Shown one piece after another: positions 1-1,172 of a DNA stretch of 64,000 nucleotides. The notes beneath the pieces were generated by a model, which saw only the letters and a program-made list of their open reading frames with translations, was not told the DNA's origin and searched no databases. This DNA comes from Candidatus Methylomirabilota bacterium (GTDB lineage Bacteria; Methylomirabilota; Methylomirabilia; Rokubacteriales; DASRDR01). Made by a program: the position numbers and the translations under genes. The stretch lies in assembly GCA_036005065.1 (NCBI GenBank), contig DASYQW010000348.1, positions 1 through 64,000 of the forward strand. The letters run 5' to 3'. Within the stretch, counting starts at the first letter, position 1, and every line of letters begins with the position of its first letter.

Positions 1-636
1 GTGGTGCTGAACCGCCGGGCGCGGATGCTCGAGGAGGCGATCGCCGACGCAAGGAGCGCCGAGGCGCGCACCCGGCTTGTAGCCAAGTTCGAGGAGGTGC
101 TCTCCCAGCTCGATGTCGCTCGGGCGGCGGTCACGCGCCCGGCCGAGCCTGAGCCGGCCCTGCTCTCGCCCGAGATCCTTCGTCGGCTGGAGGTGCTCAA
201 GCACCCGGCTGCTGCGTGGCAGCGGTTCCGTCAACGGACCCGGAAGGAGATCGTCCGAGCCCTCGCCGAGACGGTCTGGATCTACCCAGACGCCGATGGC
301 TACGTCCTGGTCATGGACTGGCACGGCGAGGGACGCGCCGCGGCAAAGGTCCAGACCGTCCGGCGGAAGAAGGTCTACTACATTCCGGAGGAGATCAGGG
401 CGCTCTTCTCCGAGGGCGATGGGGGACCGGGTACTCGGCTTCCCGATGACTCTGATCCACGCCATCCGGACGGTGAAGACGCAGCTCTTTCGTCGTTGGA
501 ACGCGAGGTTACGGTCCACGCCGACGTCGACGCTGTGATTGGTAGAAAGGCAGTTCGTTCCTGGACGAGCTGCCGGAGTTCCGGGCCCACGTCCTGGAAA
601 CCTTGCGGCAGCCGCTCGAGGACGGATTGGTGGTGA
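1..636 (+). CDS. Probable C-terminal part of a serine site-specific recombinase (partial)
   Basis: The frame is open from the first base, so the true start probably lies upstream. The visible part has a coiled-coil-like segment (about residues 5-45, rich in E, A and R), then a short alpha/beta tail around residues 85-125 with the pattern RALAETVWIYPDADGYVL. A coiled coil followed by a small beta tail is how large serine recombinases end after their zinc-ribbon domain, but the catalytic domain is outside the window, so the assignment is tentative. After about residue 180 the frame reads, out of register, into the comM fragment, so the last 30 or so residues are not native. The position right against a broken comM supports a role as the integrase of an inserted element. 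Confidence 0.45.
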   Translation: MVLNRRARMLEEAIADARSAEARTRLVAKFEEVLSQLDVARAAVTRPAEPEPALLSPEILRRLEVLKHPAAAWQRFRQRTRKEIVRALAETVWIYPDADGYVLVMDWHGEGRAAAKVQTVRRKKVYYIPEEIRALFSEGDGGPGTRLPDDSDPRHPDGEDAALSSLEREVTVHADVDAVIGRKAVRSWTSCRSSGPTSWKPCGSRSRTDWW

Positions 637-1172
637 TCTCACGCGCGAGCGCCAGCCTCACGTTTCCGGCGGAGTTCCAGCTCGTGGGCGCCACGAACTT
701 CTGCCGGCGTGGCTGTCGCGACCTGGGGACGTGCGCGTGCACGCCGGCCGAGCGGGCGGCCTACCTGGGGCGGCTGTCGGGGCCGCTCCTGGACCGGATC
801 GATCTGCACCTCGAGGTACCCCCCGTCCCCTACCGGGATCTGGAGGCGCCGGCAGCGGGCGAGGGGTCGCCGGCGATCCGGAAGCGGGTCATCGCGGCGC
901 GCCAGCGCCAGCGGGAGCGCTGGGGACGGGGCCGCTTCCGGGTGAACGGCCGAATGCTGCCGCGGCAGGTAGCGCGCTACTGCGGCCTCACGCGGGAAGG
1001 CCGGCAGGTCCTCGGCCATGCCGTGGACCGGCTCGGGCTCTCGGCGCGCGCCCACGATCGCGTCCTCAAGGTGGCGCGCACGATCGCGGACCTGGCGGCT
1101 CGGGAGGCGATCGGGCCGGAGCACCTCGCGGAGGCGCTCACCTACCGGGGGATCGAGCGGCGCCTTTCCTGA
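549..1172 (+). pseudogene. comM: 3' fragment of comM/yifB (Mg-chelatase-like AAA+ ATPase)
   Basis: About 207 residues match the C-terminal part of the ComM/YifB family, a hexameric helicase that helps branch migration during natural transformation. The fragment begins exactly at the Walker-B region (FLDELPEF) and continues with the family pattern RQPLEDGLVVISRA, a Cys-rich insert (CRRGCRDLGTC) and the Mg_chelatase C-terminal helices ending in GIERRLS. Family members are about 500 residues, so the N-terminal domain and Walker A are missing. An in-frame stop at 543-545 closes the frame upstream, and the sequence before about 550 is unrelated to comM. The simplest reading is a gene cut by insertion or rearrangement. 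Internal TTG starts such as 603 exist, but a product without Walker A would not hydrolyse ATP. Confidence 0.8.

Follow-up and report, generated by a model that had tools for sequence, protein, structure and literature searches.

The comM homologue, annotated as 'magnesium chelatase/ATP-dependent protease' (comM/YifB), is targeted by 12.4% of predicted site-specific large serine recombinases (LSRs) (Durrant et al. 2022, PMC10083194). The sr1 element of Wolbachia prophage WO has its serine recombinase in a magnesium chelatase gene, and the halves of this gene are found at both ends (PMC9203015). The comM gene of Acinetobacter is inactivated by the large AbaR islands, which are built of transposons Tn6019/Tn6018 (PMC7508600). 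The suicidal (SSV-type) integrases of archaea carry attP within the integrase gene, and integration interrupts the gene; this type was called exclusive to archaea in a 2021 review (PMC8371274). LSR insertion in comM is already known, and the basic event described here is ordinary.

The DNA analysed here, a stretch of 64,000 nucleotides called the window, comprises bases 1-64000 of contig C348 (104,035 bp) in the Rokubacteria assembly G000 (419 contigs, 97.9% complete, 4.4% contamination). We are highly confident that its left edge holds one end of an integrative LSR element inserted in comM at Walker B, with attP in the LSR frame, an exchanged recombinase tail and an orientation opposite to that of the related copies. 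The features are collected in Table 1.

Table 1. Features of the insertion in the window and in relative G004, with the junctions of all copies (comM strand; the slash separates the two sides of a junction).
Feature	Position	Strand	Basis
Large serine recombinase (LSR), C-terminal ~180-185 codons	1-557	+	Homology to the complete G004 and G057 LSRs
LSR-side attP half-site GTA-N10-TCG, GTAGAAAGGCAGTTCG, read as ..GRKAVR by the LSR frame	542-557	+	Four further element ends with identical spacing; same reading frame as the relatives' half-sites
Crossover region TTCCTGGA	558-565	+	G004/G057 junction comparison
comM 3' remnant, C-terminal 204 codons from Walker B	558-1172	+	Pfam profiles, relatives' comM, synteny
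Window junction, GTAGAAAGGCAGTTCG / TTCCTGGACGAGCTGCC			
G004 far-end junction, GTATCGAGGTAACTCG / CTCCTCGACGAGATGCC			
G057 far-end junction, GTAGCCTCGTGGGTCG / TTCCTGGACGAGCTACC			
G004 LSR-end junction, CTCTTCCTCGA / CGAGTTGCCACCCTAC			
G057 LSR-end junction, CTCTTCCTAGA / CGACCCGCCACCCTAC			
G004 comM 3' half	C39:91266-91895	minus	
G004 element	C39:91860-169666 (~91.86-169.67 kb)		
G004 comM 5' half, adjoined by the LSR	C39:169633-170577	minus	

The first-pass annotation had placed a sharp start of comM similarity near base 550 at FLDELPEF, and this was confirmed with a slightly sharper boundary at 557/558. From base 558 the codons TTC CTG GAC GAG CTG CCG GAG TTC encode FLDELPEF (Walker B), and the stop codon of the remnant lies at 1170-1172. 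The frame 603-1172 matched the Pfam profile Mg_chelatase_C (2.5e-32), so that the C-terminal domain is retained, and also the 3' part of Mg_chelatase (1.3e-23, profile positions 126-205 of 207). The claim that all upstream comM sequence is gone held as well: the Walker A half is absent from the window, and a search for the 5' half across the G000 assembly found none. Because the Walker A half is lost, the window comM is presumably non-functional. The gene order 3' of it, at 3.1-12.9 kb, is the same as in the relatives, and therefore this comM stands at its ancestral locus. The gene is unbroken across the insertion bases in most of 40 relatives of the order, which represent empty sites. The 5' side of the locus varies within the order.

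Two other contigs of the assembly were considered for the missing flank. A 5.7-kb contig (G000:C343:4377-5678) carries a second comM which crosses the site unbroken. It shares ~53% identity with the window remnant and lies at about the same distance from every member of the order. This separate, divergent gene was rejected as the missing 5' half, and the contig is probably a contaminant or holds a divergent extra comM copy. Homologues of the genes that flank comM on the 5' side in some relatives lie at G000:C398:6478-10014, beside cytochrome oxidase genes and without comM. C398 was rejected as the left flank: it has a homologue of the comM-neighbour gene of G004, but no comM half. As no more than 15 of the 29 loci in relatives have that neighbour, the homologue predicts little.

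The neighbour of comM had been read as the C-terminal end of a serine recombinase. The product of bases 1-557 shares 57-63% identity with the C-terminal region of complete LSRs in two genomes, G004 and G057, both of which show Resolvase, Recombinase and Zn_ribbon_recom domains above the Pfam cut-offs, and this identity supports the reading. The search of the 1-540 product against recombinase models, which the first-pass annotation had proposed, gave no Pfam and no NCBIfam match for this product by itself; the domains were recovered through the full-length homologues, and the window holds only the C-terminal ~180 residues. Base 1 of the window is base 1 of the contig, and therefore the assembly offers no leftward extension. 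The N-terminal ~475 residues of the LSR fall beyond this end, and neither they nor any other remaining part of the element was found in the G000 assembly. Bases 1-557 have a GC content of 0.67. Since 21% of the stretches in the window are equally low, this value is unexceptional and was not used as evidence.

Among 95 genomes of the phylum, three had the LSR, namely G000, G004 and G057. No relatives were found among viral contigs, and the matches in plasmids and phages were distant (24-32% identity, catalytic part only). By these searches, the LSR belongs to a narrow lineage of Rokubacteria. The nearest solved structure by sequence is YokA, the SPbeta serine integrase (PDB 9dxh, 9dxd; E ~1e-12 over the Resolvase domain), whose likeness to the LSR is confined to ~157 residues. 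G057 also has a second, distant LSR (32%), whose open frame has 727 codons and lies at the end of a contig (G057:C37:8-1270).

The complete arrangement was seen in the relatives. G004 (an order-level relative of G000) and G057 carry the same LSR, inserted at the same comM base as in the window; one comM base is thus targeted in three genomes of different genera. The element of G004 is 77.8 kb long with both junctions on one contig and a comM half at each end, and its GC content is ~0.61 against 0.70-0.72 outside. The comM halves of G057 lie on separate contigs, each joined to an element end. The shared LSR and comM base, together with the two G004 junctions, support the earlier proposal that the window begins at the edge of an integrated element, of which the window shows one comM half.

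The cargo of the G004 island was surveyed by scanning 40 proteins within the element and at its edges with Pfam. Genes for mobilization comprise a Replic_Relax protein and two TrwB/TraG-like coupling proteins, together with a DnaG-type primase. Homologues of DndB, DndC, DndD and PbeA/PbeC (Dnd/Pbe system) represent defence, and further cargo includes an AIPR/AbiU-like protein, a TIR-APAZ-type protein (short Argonaute partner), nucleases of the Mrr and GmrSD types, a reverse transcriptase and DNA methylases. None of the 40 proteins was a phage structural protein. This gene content makes a mobilizable defence island the best reading of the G004 element. A Mutator transposase and two additional serine recombinase genes (L067:8724-10322 and L066:16071-16865) are also present, the latter possibly from nested elements.

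The junctions define the att sites. GTA-N10-TCG stands beside the crossover at all five element ends seen in the three genomes, and the chance of this pattern falling exactly at the window junction is ~2e-4. The sites are short, with imperfect dyad half-sites and the common core TCCT. The far-end junction of G004 departs from comM already before TCC and the two junctions of G057 diverge right after CCT; therefore, the exchange took place within TCCT (559-562). The symmetry of the half-sites would place the central dinucleotide at CT (561-562), and none of TC, CC and CT is palindromic. The far-end junction motif was found in 3 of 95 phylum genomes, precisely the LSR carriers, and its reversed control matched none of the 95. 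Chance is thereby excluded. The opposite junction motif occurred among the same 95 in G004 and G057 only. A search of viral contigs with the attP pattern gave two matches without a recombinase, which were rejected as chance.

The orientation of the window copy is different, although the core TCCT is not palindromic. In G004 and G057 the LSR points towards the comM 5' half, whereas the window LSR points towards the 3' half. The orientation of serine integrase recombination is fixed by the central dinucleotide according to Ghosh et al. 2003, as cited in PMC4111918. If the dinucleotide sets the orientation, the core of the window element should be inverted relative to its own LSR gene. The one junction of this copy that is present points to such an inverted attP core.

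The attP site also overlaps the LSR reading frame. None of the three copies has a stop codon in its LSR frame ahead of the crossover. The window frame continues through the junction and ends at 636, after 79 bases of comM, and the frames of G004 and G057 likewise run past the junction. The half-site is read in one frame throughout, as GRKAVR in the window and as RRVATR or RRVAGR in the relatives. It follows that attP is part of the LSR coding sequence and that the final ~25-30 codons of the gene are exchanged upon integration. When the element ends were joined in silico, an in-frame tail closed by a stop was obtained for G004 (..RRVATRRGASYLDTVQRLASVALEFAVADARSGR*) and for G057 (..RRVAGRLGTTHEATVNRLAALELEFADEVIT*). 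The similarity of the two tails scored 40 against -16 +/- 10 for shuffled residues, part of it being shared DNA. Beyond the att arm 9 of 17 residues are identical, and 6% of neutral-divergence simulations score as high. These values do no more than suggest selection on the swapped tail and its functional importance. The C-terminus of a single Mesorhizobium homologue appears different by eye.

In the most likely reading, the element entered comM at the Walker B codons (TTC CTS GAC) by attP x attB exchange, splitting the gene. Bases 1-557 are the recombinase end of the element and bases 558-1172 the comM remnant, as both the sequence and the relatives show. Integration puts comM-derived sequence in place of the C-terminal tail, an exchange visible in the frame and with a presumed functional role, and excision would restore the original tail. 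The reversed lie of the window copy would be expected from an attP core inverted relative to the LSR gene. It is possible, if somewhat doubtful, that these enzymes are bacterial serine recombinases in which attP within the coding sequence makes integration swap the C-terminal tail and excision restore it. Such a swap could serve as a built-in switch for directionality or as a lock, and with the core inverted either orientation in comM would be open to the element.

What stands against an integrated element is that the catalytic domain, the second junction and the comM 5' half of the window copy are all absent from the assembly. The unbroken second comM on C343 is a further point against, tempered by its low identity to the window remnant. 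The element end is real, and the element itself is not seen in the assembly of the window genome. A decayed remnant, in which deletion or rearrangement subsequently removed most of the inserted element and the comM 5' half and left one end, would account for the absence of a comM 5' half and of an LSR N-terminal part from an assembly that is 97.9% complete. We consider it unlikely, because the LSR frame is conserved and open right up to where the contig stops, and a stop within the LSR is also expected if coverage of a mobile element is lacking or varies between strains. The same gaps bear on an assembly chimera, that is, an unrelated recombinase fragment that the assembler fused with a piece of comM at the end of a contig: the junction lies 557 bases from the end of a contig in a 419-contig assembly, and the bin holds no other element part. 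But the join falls at the exact comM base and with the half-site spacing that the same LSR family shows in two other genomes, which a chimera would not reproduce, and this explanation is very improbable.

The first-pass annotation had cited the AbaR islands as a parallel. The parallel extends to the target gene, comM, and no further; AbaR islands, large and comM-inactivating, are built of transposons and are not LSR elements. The better parallel is given by LSRs that use comM or 'magnesium chelatase' as attB (PMC10083194, PMC9203015). An AbaR-like transposition island with the recombinase fragment as a passenger could appeal to comM being the usual target of such islands (PMC7508600). However, the boundary shows no transposon ends with transposition genes. 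The recombinase ends exactly at the crossover in three genomes, half-sites stand at every end and a core is common to both junctions, and such anatomy is that of serine integrase recombination. We therefore give a passenger origin practically no weight, and an LSR element integrated in comM remains the preferred reading.

Compared with the described systems, this element shares with the LSR elements of Durrant et al. (PMC10083194) a large serine recombinase and a comM homologue as the target. The Rokubacteria copies differ in the narrow LSR lineage, attP in the LSR frame and the reversed window copy, although the Durrant set may hold such cases. Wolbachia sr1WO is likewise a serine recombinase element splitting a comM homologue (PMC9203015), but it is a prophage, whereas the G004 element has mobilization and defence genes. 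With the SSV-type integrases the LSR shares an attP located in the integrase gene (PMC8371274). Those are tyrosine recombinases whose gene is split in two, in contrast to a bacterial serine enzyme that loses only ~25-30 C-terminal codons. Since the homologues carry serine recombinase domains, they are not members of the SSV type, and the resemblance is in gene layout only. A serine-recombinase example of attP within the integrase gene was not found in the literature covered, which was incomplete. The attP-in-gene layout and the reversed orientation go beyond the first-pass annotation, and they make a variant worth testing.

A comM-targeting serine-recombinase element is now placed in Rokubacteria, and the relative G004 was shown to carry a large anti-phage defence island. 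The copies lying at the same site in opposite orientations provide a naturally occurring test of the rule under which orientation depends on the central dinucleotide alone (Ghosh et al. 2003, as cited in PMC4111918). If the tail swap is functional, the LSR would be a bacterial serine counterpart of the archaeal suicidal integrases (PMC8371274), and integration state and enzyme form would be directly coupled.
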